Source: Pseudomonas gingeri
GTDB taxonomy: Bacteria > Pseudomonadota > Gammaproteobacteria > Pseudomonadales > Pseudomonadaceae
Length of the DNA: 64,000 nt
Direction of reading: 5' to 3'
NCBI RefSeq assembly: GCF_013385635.1
Contig: NZ_JACAPR010000003.1
Location: forward strand, 48,122-112,121
Within the stretch, counting starts at the first letter, position 1, and the number at the start of each line of letters is the position of its first letter. The position numbers and the translations under genes were made by a program. Of the stretch, positions 4,640 through 55,531 are shown piece by piece. The notes beneath the pieces were generated by a model. That model was not told the DNA's origin. It saw nothing but the letters and a program-made list of their open reading frames with translations, and searched no databases.

Positions 4640-4723
4640 TGTAGGAGCTGGCTTGCCAGCGATGAGGCCAGTAAGCCTTGCATCGCCTGTGTGGACGCCA
4701 TCGCCGGCAAGCCGGCTCCTACA
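4640..4723. repeat. REPIN
   Basis: Inverted REP pair (TGTAGGAGCTGGCTTGCC...GGCAAGCCGGCTCCTACA) in the gap between convergent amidohydrolase and trmA. Confidence 0.93.
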
Positions 4724-4765
4724 AGTTTGCGCCTCGGCACACAATATCGTTGCTGCCACGGCCCG

Positions 4766-4850
4766 TGTAGGAGCTGGCTTGCCAGCGATGAGGCCAGCAA
4801 GCCTTGCCTCGCCTGTGCGGACGCCATCGCCGGTAAGCCGGCTCCTGCAG
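4766..4850. repeat. REPIN
   Basis: Second REPIN in the same convergent gap, 42 bp after the first and in direct orientation with it; the right arm is slightly diverged (GGTAAGCCGGCTCCTGCA). Confidence 0.92.
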
Positions 4851-24796: not shown

Positions 24797-24880
24797 TGCA
24801 GGAGCTGGCTTGCCGGCGATGAAGCCCTTGAGCCATGTGTCGCCTGAACGGACGCCATCGCCGGCAAGCCGGCTCCTACA
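24797..24880. repeat. REPIN
   Basis: Inverted REP pair, left arm slightly diverged (TTGCAGGAGCTGGC), starting 7 bp after the yjiA stop. Confidence 0.9.
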
Positions 24881-24922
24881 GTTAGGTGGTGCAACACCGA
24901 TGCTTGTTGTGGCCCCGACCCC

Positions 24923-25006
24923 TGTAGGAGCTGGCTTGCCGGCGATGGCGCCTTCAAGAACGATGCAAGACTTGCCGGCCTCATCGCCGGCAAGCCGGCT
25001 CCTACA
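24923..25006. repeat. REPIN
   Basis: Second REPIN in the convergent yjiA/gntR gap, in the same orientation as the first and ending 4 bp before the gntR stop. Confidence 0.92.
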
Positions 25007-25009
25007 GGA

Positions 25010-25672
25010 TTACGGCAATACGGCAAGTCGATCCAGGTAATCCGCCATCGACTCGATGGCACCCCAGGCGTTGCCGTTCTCCAGCGCATGGAGGATGGTT
25101 TCCCGCCCTTGCCACCCCTCGACTGGTACCGCAGACCGGGCCAGCGCCAACCCGGTCAGCGGTACCAGTCCGCCAAGAAAATGTGCCAGGGGCGCGTTAC
25201 CGGCCATCCTCGCCAACTCCAGATGAAACTCGCCGCCCAACCTGATCGCCGCGCTTTGCCGGTGGTCTTCAACGCTTCGACGTTCACTGGCGACCAGTGT
25301 CTGCAAGGCCTCGAAGCGCAGTCCGGCAGCCTTGGCGCAGAGCAGCTGGATCACGCTGGCTTCGGCCAGTCGCCGGGCCTGCAAGGTCTGTCGCAGTTGC
25401 TCCGCACCCGGTTCGGCGACCCGCGCGCGCTGGTTGGGGCGGGTGAGAATGACCTGCTGCCGCGCCAGCTGGCTGAGCACCCGCCGCACCTGGCTACGGC
25501 CCGCGTCGTAGGCCTGCATCACGGCTTCCTCGCTCAGGCCGTTGGCAAAGCGGCGGTCGAGAATATCCTCGAACACCCGCGCATACAGCGTTTCGGCGCA
25601 ACAGGCTGGCCCTCGTGGCTGCACGAAAGCGCGTGTGGCGATGAAGGGCAGGGGTGTCGCAACGCTGTTCAT
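25010..25672 (-). CDS. GntR-family regulator, FCD type (distal of dctA locus)
   Basis: 220 aa. Residues about 25-88 form a GntR winged helix (AETLYARVFEDILDRRF, GRSQVRRVLSQLARQQVI, RARVAEPG); residues about 95-215 form an FCD effector domain with the metal/ligand His pattern (GGEFHLELARMAGN). AAGGGAG lies before the ATG. It is third in a minus-strand run dctA-gntR-gntR, 24 bp after the other regulator. Its effector is probably a carboxylate or amine (inference). Confidence 0.83.
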   Translation of the reverse strand: MNSVATPLPFIATRAFVQPRGPACCAETLYARVFEDILDRRFANGLSEEAVMQAYDAGRSQVRRVLSQLARQQVILTRPNQRARVAEPGAEQLRQTLQARRLAEASVIQLLCAKAAGLRFEALQTLVASERRSVEDHRQSAAIRLGGEFHLELARMAGNAPLAHFLGGLVPLTGLALARSAVPVEGWQGRETILHALENGNAWGAIESMADYLDRLAVLP

Positions 25673-39487: not shown

Positions 39488-41926
39488 ATGCCTGATTCTG
39501 TTGCTGCCAGCTTGCGTCTAGCGCCCGAAGCGCTGACCCGCCCTTTCTCCGCTGAACAGTTCAGCTTCTCTACCACCAATGATCTGGAGCCCTTTCGCGG
39601 TGTGCTTGGCCAGGAACGCGCGGTCGAAGCGTTGCAGTTCGGTGTGGCGATGCCACGCCCCGGTTACAACGTGTTTGTCATGGGAGAGCCCGGTACCGGG
39701 CGCTTTTCCTTCGTCAAACGCTATCTGAAGGCAGAAGGCAAGCGCCTGCAGACTCCGTCGGACTGGGTCTACGTCAACAATTTCGATGAGCCGCGCGAAC
39801 CTCGGGCGCTGGAGTTGCCCGCGGGCGAGGCCGGCGCGTTCATCAGCGATATCAACGGTCTGATCGACAACCTGCTGGCGACGTTTCCGGCGGTGTTCGA
39901 GCATCCGTCCTACCAGCAGAAGAAAAGTGCCATCGACCGTGCGTTCAACCAGCGCTACGACCGTGCCCTGGATGTGATCGAGCGCCTGGCGCTGGAGAAG
40001 GAGGTCGCGCTGTATCGCGACAGCACCAATATCGCCTTTACCCCGATGAGCGACGGCAAGGCCCTGGACGAGGCGGAGTTCGCCCAGTTGCCGGAGGCCG
40101 AGCGCGAGCGTTTCCATACCGATATCGCCGATCTCGAGGAGCGCCTCAACGAGGAACTCGCCAGCCTGCCGCAATGGAAGCGCGAGTCGAGCAACCAGTT
40201 GCGCCAGCTGAACGAAGAAACCATTACCCTGGCCTTGCAGCCTTTGCTCGCGCCGCTGTCGGAGAAATACGCCGAGAATGCGGCGGTCTGCGGTTACCTG
40301 CAAGCGATGCAGGTCTACCTGCTCAAGACCGTGGTCGAGCAACTGGTGGACGACAGCAAGACCGACGCGGTTGCCCGCAAGTTGCTGGAAGAACAGTACG
40401 CGCCGAGCCTGGTGGTCGGGCATCCGGCCAGTGGTGGGGCGCCGGTGGTGTTCGAGCCGCATCCGACCTACGACAACCTGTTCGGCCGTATCGAATACAG
40501 CACCGACCAGGGTGCGCTGTACACCACCTACCGGCAATTGCGCCCGGGGGCGCTGCATCGCGCCAACGGCGGTTTCCTGATCCTCGAAGCGGAGAAGATG
40601 CTCAGCGAACCGTTTGTCTGGGATGCGCTCAAGCGCGCCCTGCAGTCGCGCAAGCTGAAGATGGAGTCGCCCCTGGGCGAGCTGGGTCGCCTGGCGACCG
40701 TGACCCTGACGCCGCAGATGATCCCGTTGCAGGTCAAGGTCATCATCATCGGCGCGCGCCAGTTGTACTACACCCTGCAGGATCTCGATCCGGACTTCCA
40801 GGAGATGTTCCGGGTGCTGGTGGACTTCGACGAAGACATCCCGATGGTCGACGAAAGCCTGGAGCAGTTCGCCCAGTTGCTCAAGACCCGCACCTCGGAA
40901 GAGGGCATGGCGCCGCTGACCGCCGATGCGGTGGCCCGCCTGGCTACCTACAGCGCGCGCTTGGCCGAGCACCAGGGGCGTCTGTCGGCACGGATCGGCG
41001 ATCTGTTCCAACTGGTCAGCGAAGCGGATTTCATCCGTCACCTGGCCGGCGACGAACGCACCGATGCCGGTCATATCGAACGGGCGCTCAAGGCCAAGGC
41101 CACGCGTACCGGCCGGGTTTCCGCGCGGATCCTCGACGATATGCTGGCAGGGATCATCCTGATCGATACCGCTGGCGCCGCGGTCGGCAAGTGCAACGGC
41201 CTGACGGTACTGGAGGTCGGCGATTCGGCATTTGGCGTACCGGCGCGGATTTCCGCCACGGTGTATCCGGGCGGCAGCGGCATCGTCGACATCGAGCGCG
41301 AAGTCAATCTCGGGCAGCCGATTCACTCCAAGGGCGTGATGATTCTCACCGGCTACCTGGGCAGCCGTTATGCCCAGGAGTTCCCGCTGGCCATCTCCGC
41401 GAGTATTGCCCTGGAGCAGTCCTATGGGTATGTCGATGGCGACAGCGCTTCCCTTGGCGAGGCCTGCACGCTGATTTCGGCGTTGTCGAAAACCCCGCTC
41501 AAGCAGTGCTTCGCCATTACCGGTTCGATCAATCAGTTCGGTGAAGTACAGGCGGTTGGTGGGGTCAACGAGAAGATCGAGGGCTTCTTCCGGCTCTGTG
41601 AGGCCCGCGGCCTGACCGGCGAGCAGGGCGCGATCATCCCGCAGGCCAACGTCGCCACGCTGATGCTCGATGAAAAGGTCCTGCAAGCCGTGCGCGCCGG
41701 ACAGTTCCATGTGTATGCGGTGCGTCAGGCTGACGAGGCGCTCAGTCTACTGGTGGGCGAACCCGCCGGCGAACCGGATGCCGACGGCCAGTTCCCGGAA
41801 GGCAGTGTCAACGCCAGGGTGGTGGAGCGTCTGCGGGTGATCGCCGAAATGATCAGCGACGATGACCTCAAGGAGGCCGAGAGGGAAGCGGCCGAGCAGG
41901 CGCTGGCGGAGGTCAAGCCGTCCTGA
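39488..41926 (+). CDS. Lon-like ATP-dependent protease (AAA_32/LonB-type, YcbZ group)
   Basis: 812 aa. N-terminal AAA-like part: P-loop reads GEPGTGRFS, with Arg where Lys is usual. Long coiled insertion about 170-330. Walker B region ANGGFLILEAEKML. C-terminal Lon protease domain (about 560-790) with the catalytic Ser in VDGDSASLGEA and Lys in GVNEKIEGFF. AAGGAAG precedes the ATG. Matches PAO1 PA4576 by position (from memory). Substrates unknown. Confidence 0.9.
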   Translation: MPDSVAASLRLAPEALTRPFSAEQFSFSTTNDLEPFRGVLGQERAVEALQFGVAMPRPGYNVFVMGEPGTGRFSFVKRYLKAEGKRLQTPSDWVYVNNFDEPREPRALELPAGEAGAFISDINGLIDNLLATFPAVFEHPSYQQKKSAIDRAFNQRYDRALDVIERLALEKEVALYRDSTNIAFTPMSDGKALDEAEFAQLPEAERERFHTDIADLEERLNEELASLPQWKRESSNQLRQLNEETITLALQPLLAPLSEKYAENAAVCGYLQAMQVYLLKTVVEQLVDDSKTDAVARKLLEEQYAPSLVVGHPASGGAPVVFEPHPTYDNLFGRIEYSTDQGALYTTYRQLRPGALHRANGGFLILEAEKMLSEPFVWDALKRALQSRKLKMESPLGELGRLATVTLTPQMIPLQVKVIIIGARQLYYTLQDLDPDFQEMFRVLVDFDEDIPMVDESLEQFAQLLKTRTSEEGMAPLTADAVARLATYSARLAEHQGRLSARIGDLFQLVSEADFIRHLAGDERTDAGHIERALKAKATRTGRVSARILDDMLAGIILIDTAGAAVGKCNGLTVLEVGDSAFGVPARISATVYPGGSGIVDIEREVNLGQPIHSKGVMILTGYLGSRYAQEFPLAISASIALEQSYGYVDGDSASLGEACTLISALSKTPLKQCFAITGSINQFGEVQAVGGVNEKIEGFFRLCEARGLTGEQGAIIPQANVATLMLDEKVLQAVRAGQFHVYAVRQADEALSLLVGEPAGEPDADGQFPEGSVNARVVERLRVIAEMISDDDLKEAEREAAEQALAEVKPS

Positions 41927-41932
41927 CGGCGC

Positions 41933-42430
41933 GCATGGACTGTGGGAGTGGGCTTGTTGTGTGCGGGCTTGCCCGCGAAGCTCCTGGTGCTCTCAAGGGC
42001 CTCTTCGCTGGCAAGCCAGCTCCCACATTGGATCGACGCCTCGGCACAGGTATCGCGGCGACCGCATGGACTGTGGGAGTGGGCTTGTTGTGTGCGGGCT
42101 TGCCCGCGAAGCTTCTGGTGCTCTCAAGGGCCTCTTCGCTGGCAAGCCAGCTCCCACATTGGATCGACGCCTCGGCACAGGTATCGCGGCAACCGCATGG
42201 ACTGTGGGAGTGGGCTTGTTGTGTGCGGGCTTGCCCGCGAAGCTCCTGGTGTTCTCAAGGGCCTCTTCGCTGGCAAGCCAGCTCCCACATTGGATCGACG
42301 CCTCGGCACAGGTATCGCGGCAACCGCATGGACTGTGGGAGTGGGCTTGTTGTGGGAGCGGGCTTGCCAGCGAAGCTTCTGGTGCTCTCAAGGGCCTCTT
42401 CGCTGGCAAGCCAGTTCCCACAAGTTCCGC
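41933..42430. repeat. Tandem array of a 131-bp unit built on REP elements
   Basis: The sequence GCATGGACTGTGGGAG recurs at 41933, 42064, 42195 and 42326, exactly 131 bp apart. Each unit holds a REP-like inverted pair (GCGGGCTTGCCCGCGAAGC ... TTCGCTGGCAAGCCAGCTCCCACA) plus a constant spacer (GGATCGACGCCTCGGCACAG). The first three units are nearly identical; the fourth is shorter and its REP differs (GGGAGCGGGCTTGCCAGCGAAG). Frame-shifted open reading in all frames comes from the repeat and is not a gene. The remaining gap to 42614 has a small hairpin AGCTTCCCGTCGGAAGCT (42569-42586). Confidence 0.92.
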
Positions 42431-42614
42431 AAGTGCAGGGCCAAGGGCGGGGGTCAAGGCTTTGGCGCCCGTTCCCCTGGCGCCCGTTGGTCCTCCAGGT
42501 CCTTGCGCCCGGTAGATTTATTCTATTCTCTGGGCAAGGACATCCACTGTAGTCACTGGAACGATGCAGCTTCCCGTCGGAAGCTGAAGACAGGACCTAC
42601 CGAGGGTCGCCGCC

Positions 42615-42947
42615 ATGTCGCGCAGCCTTTGTCTTACCCGTCAATGCCTGGGCCTGGTCACCCGTATCGAATGCGTCATTCGTCCGCTCGCCGGCGATAA
42701 CGGGATGTGGACCCTCTTGTTCGCTGCCGGAATGGCCGGTGAGCAACCCTCCGCGATCAAATCCCAGGGCCCTTTCCATGGCCCCTTCGTCGCTGAATCC
42801 ATACTCGATTCGATTGTCGAAAGCCTGACTCTGCACGGCTACGAACTGGCCGAAGAACCGCAGATCTGGCGCCTGCACCTGCAGGCCCAGCTACGGCAGA
42901 TCAACGGCGAGCGCGGTCGGCATCCGGGTGGCTACGAACTGCACTGA
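42615..42947 (+). CDS. Conserved hypothetical protein
   Basis: 110 aa, no signal or membrane segment. Contains SILDSIVESLTLHGYELAEEPQIWRLHLQAQLRQINGERGRHP, which looks like a small alpha/beta domain. GAGG lies before the ATG. No family recognised; coding is supported by codon-like base pattern and by ending 5 bp from the convergent lipoprotein gene. Confidence 0.65.
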   Translation: MSRSLCLTRQCLGLVTRIECVIRPLAGDNGMWTLLFAAGMAGEQPSAIKSQGPFHGPFVAESILDSIVESLTLHGYELAEEPQIWRLHLQAQLRQINGERGRHPGGYELH

Positions 42948-42951
42948 GGCA

Positions 42952-44778
42952 TTACTCGGCGGGTTCGTTGCTCTGGACCTTGTCGAGCTTGACCTCGAAA
43001 CCGTACTCGACGGTCTGCAGGTTGGTGCGCTGGTAGCTTTCCAGCTGCGTCGGCTGGCCGTAGAAGTAGTGCACGTCATAGAGCGGCGGTGAGTCCGCTT
43101 TCTCGTTATGGCGGGTGGCGAGGATTTCCTTCAGGTAGTTGCCGCTGTCGTCCCTGGCGTAGAAGCGCCAGGACTCGGCCGGGAACAGTTTCTGGTCGAC
43201 CACCAGGGCATTGCCCTTGAGTTCCAGGCCCTTGGGAAGCTGGCGGGTATCCAGGGTGTTTTTCTGGATATCGGCGAGAAACAGCGGTATCGAGCCGATG
43301 GCATAGGCCGGCGTTTCCGGGAACAGGTTGAGGTCGTAGGTGATGGTGCCTTCCAGCGGGTTGACCTCGAACGCTTCCTTGGGCAGCTCCAGCGGTTCGC
43401 CGCGTTTTCCCTGTTCGTCTTCGGCAAAGAAGGTGACCGGGCTGTCGCCGGGGCTGAAGGATGAGCCGAGCAGTTCGTCGTTGAAGGTCTTCGGATGGTC
43501 GAACTCGATGCGCGCGGCGCTGGCGTCGTCCACGGACTGGCTGATGCTGACACTCTTTTTCAGCTGTTCGGCGTCGAGATCGGCATCCTTGAGGTAGTGG
43601 GTCGCCTGGTCGTCATAGACCACCGCCGGCATCGGCAACGGCTGGATTTCCTTGCTGGTGGTGTCATCGAACTGGCGTATCGGCAGGTCCAGTTCCTTGC
43701 GGTTGACGGTGGCGCCGGAGAAATCCAGCACGCTGATTTCCAGCTTGTCGACCATGCCGTTGAAGTACACGCGGGTGTAATGGCTGCTCTGCCTGGCTTC
43801 GAAGGCTTTCTGTTCGTCATCGAGTTTCTTCTCGAAGGCGTCGCTCCAACTCTTCTGCTTGAGCATTTCATCCAGCTGTTGCTGGTAGAAGGCGATCTGT
43901 GCGGCGTTTTCATTGATCGACCCCGAGCGCGAGAGGAACTGCCCGGTACTGTCCTTGGCCTGGGCGATCAGCGGGTTCAGTGGGGTGTCACCGACCTGGG
44001 CGGCCTGGGGGGCGCTGTTGCTCAGTTCGATCTCGGCATTGTTCTTGTCGAGGGAAACCAGGGTCAGGCTGATGTTTTCGTTGGTCTGCCGCTTGCCGAT
44101 GTCCTTGCGGGTCAGGTCGAAGGTAAAGACCTTGCGCGGGGCGATCACCTCGACCTTGCCGTGCAGGGTCAGCGGTTGGGGCTGGTTGCGATTCTCGACC
44201 TCCACCCCGTCGACATACGGGTAGGTCACCGTCAGGTCGTCGGGGTTGGTCATGTTGGCGCTGGATGGGCTCAACTGGATGCCGGGATCGGTTTCCGACC
44301 ATTCGGGCTGGAAAGGCACGACCTGTTTGTTGCTCAGGGTCACCGACTGCCATTCCAGGGCGTGGGGGAAGGGAAACTCGGTCGGGTAGTTGAAACTGAA
44401 CGGGAAGATCGGCTGCAGGTCGGTCAGGTAGTCGGAGCTGGAGGCCTTGCGCAGCACGAACAGCCCGTTGATGTAGGTGTCGGCCAGGGCCTGCGGGGTC
44501 GGGTAGTGCTTGAGCAGCGCCAGGGCATCGTCGCTGTACTCGGTCTCGATCGGCTTGTCCCGCAGCCGCAGGCGAGCACGTTCGAGCAGCAGCAACGAGC
44601 CGCCGAGGTCCGCGACGGCGTCCTTGAGCTTGGGGTCCTGGATCGTGTCGAGGGTCTTTTCGAATTGCGCGGTTCTTTCCTCGAGACTGGTCTGTTGCTG
44701 CTTGTCGTCGGGGGAACAGCCGCTCATCAGCAGAGCGACCGAGAGTCCGAGGCAACCCAGGGGGCGTCGCAAATCCAT
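42952..44778 (-). CDS. Large hypothetical lipoprotein
   Basis: 608 aa. Signal peptide with lipobox LLMSGC (Cys at about 21), residue +2 Ser, so likely sorted to the outer membrane. A helical region about 30-100 (LEERTAQFEKTLDTIQDPKLKDAVADLGG) is followed by several beta-rich segments (VTYPYVDGVEVENRN, KVFTFDLTRKDIGKR, VYFNGMVDKLEISVLDF). No catalytic motif recognised. AGGAAA lies 9-14 nt before the ATG. Divergent from yqhA. Confidence 0.75.
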   Translation of the reverse strand: MDLRRPLGCLGLSVALLMSGCSPDDKQQQTSLEERTAQFEKTLDTIQDPKLKDAVADLGGSLLLLERARLRLRDKPIETEYSDDALALLKHYPTPQALADTYINGLFVLRKASSSDYLTDLQPIFPFSFNYPTEFPFPHALEWQSVTLSNKQVVPFQPEWSETDPGIQLSPSSANMTNPDDLTVTYPYVDGVEVENRNQPQPLTLHGKVEVIAPRKVFTFDLTRKDIGKRQTNENISLTLVSLDKNNAEIELSNSAPQAAQVGDTPLNPLIAQAKDSTGQFLSRSGSINENAAQIAFYQQQLDEMLKQKSWSDAFEKKLDDEQKAFEARQSSHYTRVYFNGMVDKLEISVLDFSGATVNRKELDLPIRQFDDTTSKEIQPLPMPAVVYDDQATHYLKDADLDAEQLKKSVSISQSVDDASAARIEFDHPKTFNDELLGSSFSPGDSPVTFFAEDEQGKRGEPLELPKEAFEVNPLEGTITYDLNLFPETPAYAIGSIPLFLADIQKNTLDTRQLPKGLELKGNALVVDQKLFPAESWRFYARDDSGNYLKEILATRHNEKADSPPLYDVHYFYGQPTQLESYQRTNLQTVEYGFEVKLDKVQSNEPAE

Positions 44779-45572: not shown

Positions 45573-45878
45573 ATGAACCTGCAAGAGCTGAACAGTTTCG
45601 CCCTCGCCGGGCGGATCGACGAGTTGAACCTGATCTCCCTCGAAGGTGGCATCTATCTGCTGGAAGCGCGGATGCACGGAGCGGCCTACCCGCTCAACGA
45701 CGATCACGGGCAGACCCTGCACCTGCGTTCGGTGGAGCATGCGAGGGAGGTGCTGGAAAGAATGCCGAAGCTGCCGTTCCACCTGATCCATACCTCGGTG
45801 CACGACGAAATGTGCGGGATGCCGGCCAGTGCCGAGGACAGCCTGAAGGTGCCCATCGCCTTCCATTCTGGCTGGTGA
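45573..45878 (+). CDS. DUF6482 family protein
   Basis: 101 aa soluble protein. Family-like pattern: MNLQELNSFALAGRIDELNLISLEGGIYLLEARM, GQTLHLRSVEHAREVLE, FHLIHTSVHDEMCGM. Common in pseudomonads between yqhA and fklB; function unknown. Confidence 0.78.
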   Translation: MNLQELNSFALAGRIDELNLISLEGGIYLLEARMHGAAYPLNDDHGQTLHLRSVEHAREVLERMPKLPFHLIHTSVHDEMCGMPASAEDSLKVPIAFHSGW

Positions 45879-55324: not shown

Positions 55325-55405
55325 CAGCCTGGCTTGCCAGCGATGAGGCCCTTGAAGCTTTACGCCGCACGGGCGGACGCCATCGCCGGCAAGCCGGCTC
55401 CTACA
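55325..55405. repeat. REPIN, left arm truncated
   Basis: GCCTGGCTTGCCAGCGATGAGG...GCCATCGCCGGCAAGCCGGCTCCTACAG; the usual TGTAGGAG start is lost. Confidence 0.82.
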
Positions 55406-55447
55406 GGGTTGCGTATCACCACGCAGCACCGGGTGGCCCGGATCCTC

Positions 55448-55531
55448 TGTAGGAGTCTGGCTTGCCAGCGATGAGGCCCTTAGGCCTTGCAGCGCCCATC
55501 CAAACGCCATCGCCGGCAAGCCGGCGCCTAC
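55448..55531. repeat. REPIN
   Basis: Inverted REP pair (TGTAGGAGTCTGGCTTGCC...GGCAAGCCGGCGCCTAC), second of three REP units before ribF. Confidence 0.9.

Follow-up and report, generated by a model that had tools for sequence, protein, structure and literature searches.

A tandem array of REPINs lies 3' of a LonB-like gene

The stretch of Pseudomonas DNA analyzed here (the window, 64 kb of contig NZ_JACAPR010000003.1) contains at 41932–42422, in the gap between a LonB-like gene and a PA4575-like gene, a tandem array built from repetitive extragenic palindromic (REP) sequences. The REPs are arranged as REPINs, in which two inverted REPs share one hairpin, and the array consists of three full 131-bp units followed by a 98-bp partial unit. 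In each full unit a 17-nt truncated REP precedes the REPIN, and a 44-nt linker follows it. Tandem Repeats Finder (TRF) reported the array with a period of 131, 3.7 copies, 96% matches and a score of 915; the two further rows that it gave for the window scored 59 and 50, and the score-59 row lies inside this same array. In addition, a repeat search placed a 161-nt reference in three copies, 99–100% identical, at 131-bp spacing. Both searches bear out the preliminary description of this locus as a tandem array of REPIN units spaced 131 bp apart. The array is real, and is an ordinary tandem REPIN cluster of a kind already described in Pseudomonas (PMC3116915, PMC3733652). The features of the locus are as follows.

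41932..42062, + strand: unit 1, 131 bp
41941..42027, + strand: REPIN 1, including the 17-nt truncated REP on its 5' side; predicted hairpin, -44.9 kcal/mol
42028..42071, + strand: linker 1, 44 nt
42063..42193, + strand: unit 2, 131 bp
42072..42158, + strand: REPIN 2; predicted -44.9 kcal/mol
42159..42202, + strand: linker 2, 44 nt
42194..42324, + strand: unit 3, 131 bp
42203..42289, + strand: REPIN 3; predicted -44.7 kcal/mol
42290..42333, + strand: linker 3, 44 nt
42325..42422, + strand: partial unit 4, 98 bp; a REPIN without linker that retains 2 bp gone from units 1–3
42334..42422, + strand: REPIN 4, P. gingeri-like form; predicted -51.1 kcal/mol
39488..41926, + strand: LonB-like AAA+ protease gene, 812 aa, 5' of the array
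42615..42947, + strand: PA4575-like gene, 110 aa, 3' of the array

Any two of units 1–3 differ at 2 of 131 positions (98.5% identity), with three variable positions overall. All three share a change in the second REP, which reads GTGTG for GTGGGAG, corresponding to the loss of 2 bp next to an A-to-T change. This destroys the GTGG foot of that REP, and because one REP is thus without an intact foot we refer to units 1–3 as decayed REPINs. Unit 4 keeps both foot and stem; it has the 2 bp absent from units 1–3 (giving an inner spacing of 133), carries two private changes and lacks a linker on its 3' side. The near identity of three units noted in the preliminary description holds for units 1–3; the partial unit 4 is structurally different.

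Several observations place these elements among REPINs. In each of the four, two inverted REPs are predicted to fold into one hairpin (-44.7 to -51.1 kcal/mol per REPIN), the outer 5' arm of the hairpin in units 1–3 being the truncated REP. The REP core GGGCTTGCCNGCGA is present in high copy, with 269 exact 14-mer matches in the genome and none when the pattern is read backwards. The genome also encodes REP-associated tyrosine transposases (RAYTs), in the form of four Y1_Tnp genes that score above the Pfam threshold. Finally, it is near-identical REPINs together with flanking sequence that are repeated in tandem, as in a tandem REPIN cluster.

Other REP arrays in the genome and beyond

The source assembly is a draft of 64 contigs, and the array lies inside one of 160 kb (C23). 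No Y1_Tnp match was found on that contig, and the array is thus not beside a RAYT gene. Three of the four RAYT loci do carry tandem REP arrays within the 2.4–3.3 kb stretches examined (L003 at the end of contig C64, L004 on C63 and L002 on C2; periods of 113, 126 on both sides, and 238), and the REPIN array on C64 stops 13 bases from the contig end. Among 30 own-genome loci scanned, a further tandem array, of period 127, was identified on contig C12.

REPs of another type, mostly GTAGGAG..GGCTTGCC, form three REPIN pairs in the window (4641–4850, 24797–25010 and 55329–55531) with 42-nt linkers and 126–128-bp spacing that TRF did not report. Another Pseudomonas genome, G006, has a 113-bp REPIN array with 39-nt linkers on its contig C101 (L269, 2736–3485); it holds at least 6.6 copies and may be longer, as it reaches the end of the examined stretch.

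REPIN copy number at this site differs between species

The nearest genome compared is that of P. gingeri A6001, with 93–96% identity over seven aligned segments of at least 500 nt, and a second draw of genus genomes yielded none closer; the source genome is closely related to P. gingeri. Each species in the comparison is represented by one genome. At the array site P. gingeri A6001 has a single REPIN with matching flanks but none of the first 28 nt of the linker; in P. agarici LMG 2112 the site is occupied by a single, diverged REPIN around which the same flank pattern is recognizable. By eye, the 27 other sites listed have either no REPIN or other REPINs. No repeat with a period of 50 or more was reported by TRF in 118 loci around the array site, a set in which some genomes were entered twice and not all loci may span the site. 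At one intergenic region 3' of a LonB-like gene (L025, genome G267), a REPIN appears by eye to sit within another REP and to split it.

Copy number therefore varies between species, with four REPINs here and one in P. gingeri A6001. The array on C12 also varies, with 3.3 copies in the source genome and 2.4 in P. gingeri. The variable copy number anticipated in the preliminary description is thus seen between relatives, for the two arrays compared.

The same description took near identity as a sign of recent expansion, which the data do not show. Units differ from one another by 1.5%, and the REPIN copies with flanking intergenic DNA differ from P. gingeri at 7 of 379 positions (1.8%, gaps excluded; the sum of 2/101, 2/98 and 3/180, the first two values being those of units 1 and 4, each set against the single REPIN of P. 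gingeri). As divergence between units is about that between species, the array may date back to around the time of the species split, or its units may have been kept alike by gene conversion. We did not see in a 300-nt divergence profile the sharp boundary of a recombination block that would have lowered divergence around the array. Third codon positions of the LonB-like gene differ from P. gingeri at 113 of 813 sites, and over the last 900 nt of that gene (41027–41926) 58 of 59 differences fall at third positions. Unusual conservation of the REPINs was considered and dropped, since other non-coding stretches nearby differ at 6/111, 11/134 and 0/117 positions and so vary widely.

Tail-to-tail linkers have a preferred length and a weak shared consensus

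To place the 44-nt linker in context, we surveyed tail-to-tail REP gaps of 0–200 nt in 1.66 Mb of the source genome, comprising the window and 80 further stretches. Gaps of 40–44 nt account for 19 of 43 (16 of 40 without this array), a peak far from a uniform model (p < 1e-15). The same range holds 8 of 11 gaps in P. gingeri, where the gaps come from 5 loci and some arrays enter twice, and 6 of 17 in G006, where 7 more, mostly from one array, are 39 nt long.

Similarity among linkers was examined in whole stretches, with one linker of 38–46 nt per array. All 34 linkers were closer to other linkers than were their own mononucleotide shuffles (p ≤ 0.05). Two near-duplicate pairs (one within the source genome, one between it and P. 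gingeri) entered this pooled test and the profile described below; the result stands when genomes are taken one by one (19/19 in the source genome, 4/5 in P. gingeri and 10/10 in G006). The test is slightly lenient, as 13 of 150 random genomic 42-mers also passed. Solitary REPIN flanks passed in 32 of 150 cases (24 of 100 in the pooled test) and are not a clean negative control; those resembling linkers are possibly remnants of arrays.

The linkers yield a weak, palindromic consensus of 41 positions, GGtTTtGcGTCGtACAcAAaATtngcGTnCGACcCngacCC. All 33 linkers scored above random in the corresponding profile, which is an in-sample figure, and 56.6% of cells in the consensus palindrome are paired, compared with 34–42% when it is slid. 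A conserved linker hairpin is not claimed: covariation equals that of shuffles (0.213 vs 0.211), and when individual linkers were tested for a stem, 5 of 34 reached significance, with none among the four in the window. Our literature searches turned up no description of a shared 41-nt linker in this group, though overlap with the spacers described in PMC3733652 is possible.

The linker of the present array, at 44 nt, falls within the 38–46 nt range of this family. It resembles other linkers with p 0.01, and own-genome linkers with p 0.003. Scores at or above its own were obtained with a hidden Markov model (HMM) for 11 of 1000 shuffles, 16 of 2000 random 44-mers and 7 of 229 solitary flanks, and with the profile for 12 of 400 shuffles, 39 of 1000 random 44-mers and 48 of 265 solitary flanks. 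Judged by sequence, this linker appears to fit the wider consensus modestly (p 0.003–0.04, depending on the test).

The linker can be divided in two. Its last 16 nt match the locus's own 5' flank except at 2 nt (CGGCG..CGCATGGAC), and its first 28 nt are those missing from the P. gingeri A6001 allele. Allowing up to 3 mismatches, the first 32 nt were found in this array only, in 1 of 398 genus genomes, and none of 66 distinct REP-end flanks from 30 own-genome loci begins in the same way. A search in three genomes for the source of the first 28 nt gave only partial matches to the halves of this 32-nt pattern, with 1–3 mismatches, at a rate that reversed controls reach in part; none was convincing.

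One reading, which we rate as somewhat less likely than not, is that REPIN clusters in this Pseudomonas group are copies of a composite module, a REPIN plus a semi-palindromic linker of fixed length (~41 nt), dispersed over many loci and species. Arrays would then be local amplifications of the module, and many single REPINs would be what contraction has left. If this is true, the linker is an unrecognized part of a mobile or recombining unit; a shared linker, if upheld, changes what counts as the repeating unit.

How the array may have formed

We consider it probable that in this tandem REPIN cluster a REPIN and its 44-nt linker were amplified through recombination or slippage, without transposase jumps. 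We favor this reading because units with a broken foot have multiplied, and have done so carrying the locus's own flank and a truncated REP. The starting point would have been a REPIN in the gap 3' of the LonB-like gene, and a module of REPIN plus linker would have given rise to the three full units and the terminal partial one, most likely through unequal recombination or replication slippage between near-identical, hairpin-forming REPINs. The same process could delete units down to one REPIN, removing the linkers exactly, and the P. gingeri A6001 allele looks like such a product. The anatomy of the array, the REPIN number in three species, the change common to units 1–3 and the length of the linker are observed; the recombination route and a mainly passive array are what we infer. 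Some points weigh against this account. In three REP systems foot mutations impair cleavage to a varying degree, the E. coli system being strict and the others less demanding (PMC8266576); as some systems tolerate them, transposase-driven growth may have occurred. Amplification and loss are deduced from one genome per species and not seen directly, and the change may have been growth here or loss in P. gingeri. Copy number itself may be off, because the assembly is a 64-contig draft.

As to direction, an older array may quite conceivably have contracted to one unit in P. gingeri through recombination between the first and last REPINs, which would take out every linker exactly. This would agree with the similarity of unit-to-unit (1.5%) and between-species intergenic (1.8%) divergence, with a linker whose length, and more weakly whose sequence, fits the wider family, and with the variable copy number of the second array; the single REPIN in P. 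agarici, however, calls for a second loss or for a gain that postdates that split. The array may also have grown in this lineage from one REPIN, if a local tandem duplication captured 28 nt of linker-like filler at its junction, as could happen by template switching with a REPIN array at another locus. Such growth would explain why both of the nearest relatives with a REPIN at the site carry one, and why the linker joins a near copy of the 5' flank to 28 nt absent from the P. gingeri locus. The linker-like character of the filler is suggested by the profile, in which equal or better scores arise in 12 of 400 cases when the 28 nt alone are shuffled and in 74 of 400 when only the 16-nt tail is. 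The HMM, on the other hand, gave the 28 nt alone no score, and no donor was found: the 32-nt pattern has no further near copy in its own genome or in 397 others, and the partial matches to the halves of that pattern are in part equaled by reversed controls. Two simultaneous events would also be needed.

Construction of the array by a REP transposase, through tandem insertion or circular intermediates, appears unlikely. Tandem REP arrays do adjoin most RAYT genes of this genome, and PMC3733652 cites a model in which complex REP arrays arise by way of circular intermediates, but there is no Y1_Tnp match on the array's contig, units 1–3 multiplied despite their common broken foot, and each unit holds the 5' flank and a truncated REP. 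We regard an assembly artefact as very improbable: the draft state of the assembly, and the other REPIN array running to within 13 bases of a contig end, would be consistent with one, but no two units share the same combination of variants, unit 4 is structurally distinct, and the array is internal to its contig. Equally hard to credit is a platform selected for binding gyrase or integration host factor (IHF). The IHF-binding role raised in the preliminary description found no support, as no match with up to 2 mismatches to the IHF consensus WATCAANNNNTTR lies inside the array, where the IHF site between REPs that marks a bacterial interspersed mosaic element (BIME) of type 1 was thus not found, and the 3.8-kb locus has 8 IHF-like matches where 8.4 are expected. 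Such a platform would be analogous to the BIMEs of E. coli, where BIME-2 binds gyrase and BIME-1 binds IHF (PMC2817692); against it, too, P. gingeri A6001 and P. agarici LMG 2112 have a single REPIN and no array.

Neighboring genes and a possible effect on translation

The array starts 5 nt past the stop codon of the LonB-like gene, and the PA4575-like gene begins 192 nt past its end. In P. gingeri the first pair of the REPIN hairpin is predicted 31 nt from the stop codon; here the predicted distance is 14 nt, and the mean pairing probability of nucleotides 15–31 after the stop is 0.86, compared with 0.40 in P. gingeri; the fold predicted after the stop is weaker here (-45.0 vs -55.2 kcal/mol). 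In E. coli, translation of a gene is lowered by REPs that follow its stop codon at a distance of less than 16 nt (work cited in PMC12306157). The REP change in unit 1 might therefore, by shifting the hairpin, lower output of the LonB-like protein. Tempering this suggestion, the values come from minimum-energy folds of isolated RNA, the P. gingeri fold has a small weak stem before the REPIN hairpin, and in a fold of the whole array the units pair among themselves.

Across the array none of the three forward frames is interrupted (217, 205 and 252 aa), and copies of unit 1 joined end to end are likewise free of forward stops in every frame. Under a first-order Markov model of the unit, 9% of units are open in this way, and such frames therefore call for no special account; with no Pfam match for the three translations (E 0.001), we rejected a protein-coding reading, in agreement with the earlier view that these are false open reading frames. 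An Rfam search (E 1) placed four microRNA models on the hairpins, all far under their gathering scores and not retained. A consensus scan of 41700–43000 found no promoter or intrinsic terminator. Elsewhere in the window there is a likely small gene at 45573–45878.

Relation to known REP clusters

P. fluorescens SBW25 has 16 tandem REPIN clusters, the largest with four REPINs and one REP; three lie beside a RAYT gene, which is not a requirement (Bertels and Rainey 2011, PMC3116915). Like them, the present array consists of near-identical REPINs in tandem with their flanks. Unlike them, it belongs to another species and locus and is not beside a RAYT gene, every unit has a truncated REP, and units 1–3 have a broken REP foot. 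For GTAG-type REP dimers, the account of Di Nocera (2013, PMC3733652) gives spacers of 20–100 bp, some similar in length or with complementary ends, and clusters in which dimers are reiterated in tandem together with flanking DNA, as they are here; its rule of thumb is that tail-to-tail spacers are variable, whereas those surveyed here peak at ~39–44 nt with a weak shared consensus. The tandem REP doublets in alternating orientation also resemble E. coli BIME-2 (PMC2817692, PMC3686654), from which the array differs in REP family and host, and in being known from its sequence and not from gyrase or IHF binding.

As an array, then, the locus is ordinary. PMC3116915 leaves the growth and shrinkage of clusters to "a second mechanism", and the allele pair described here, with one REPIN in P. 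gingeri A6001 and four in the source genome, can be used to study how such clusters expand and contract; the linker family is the one thread worth following.
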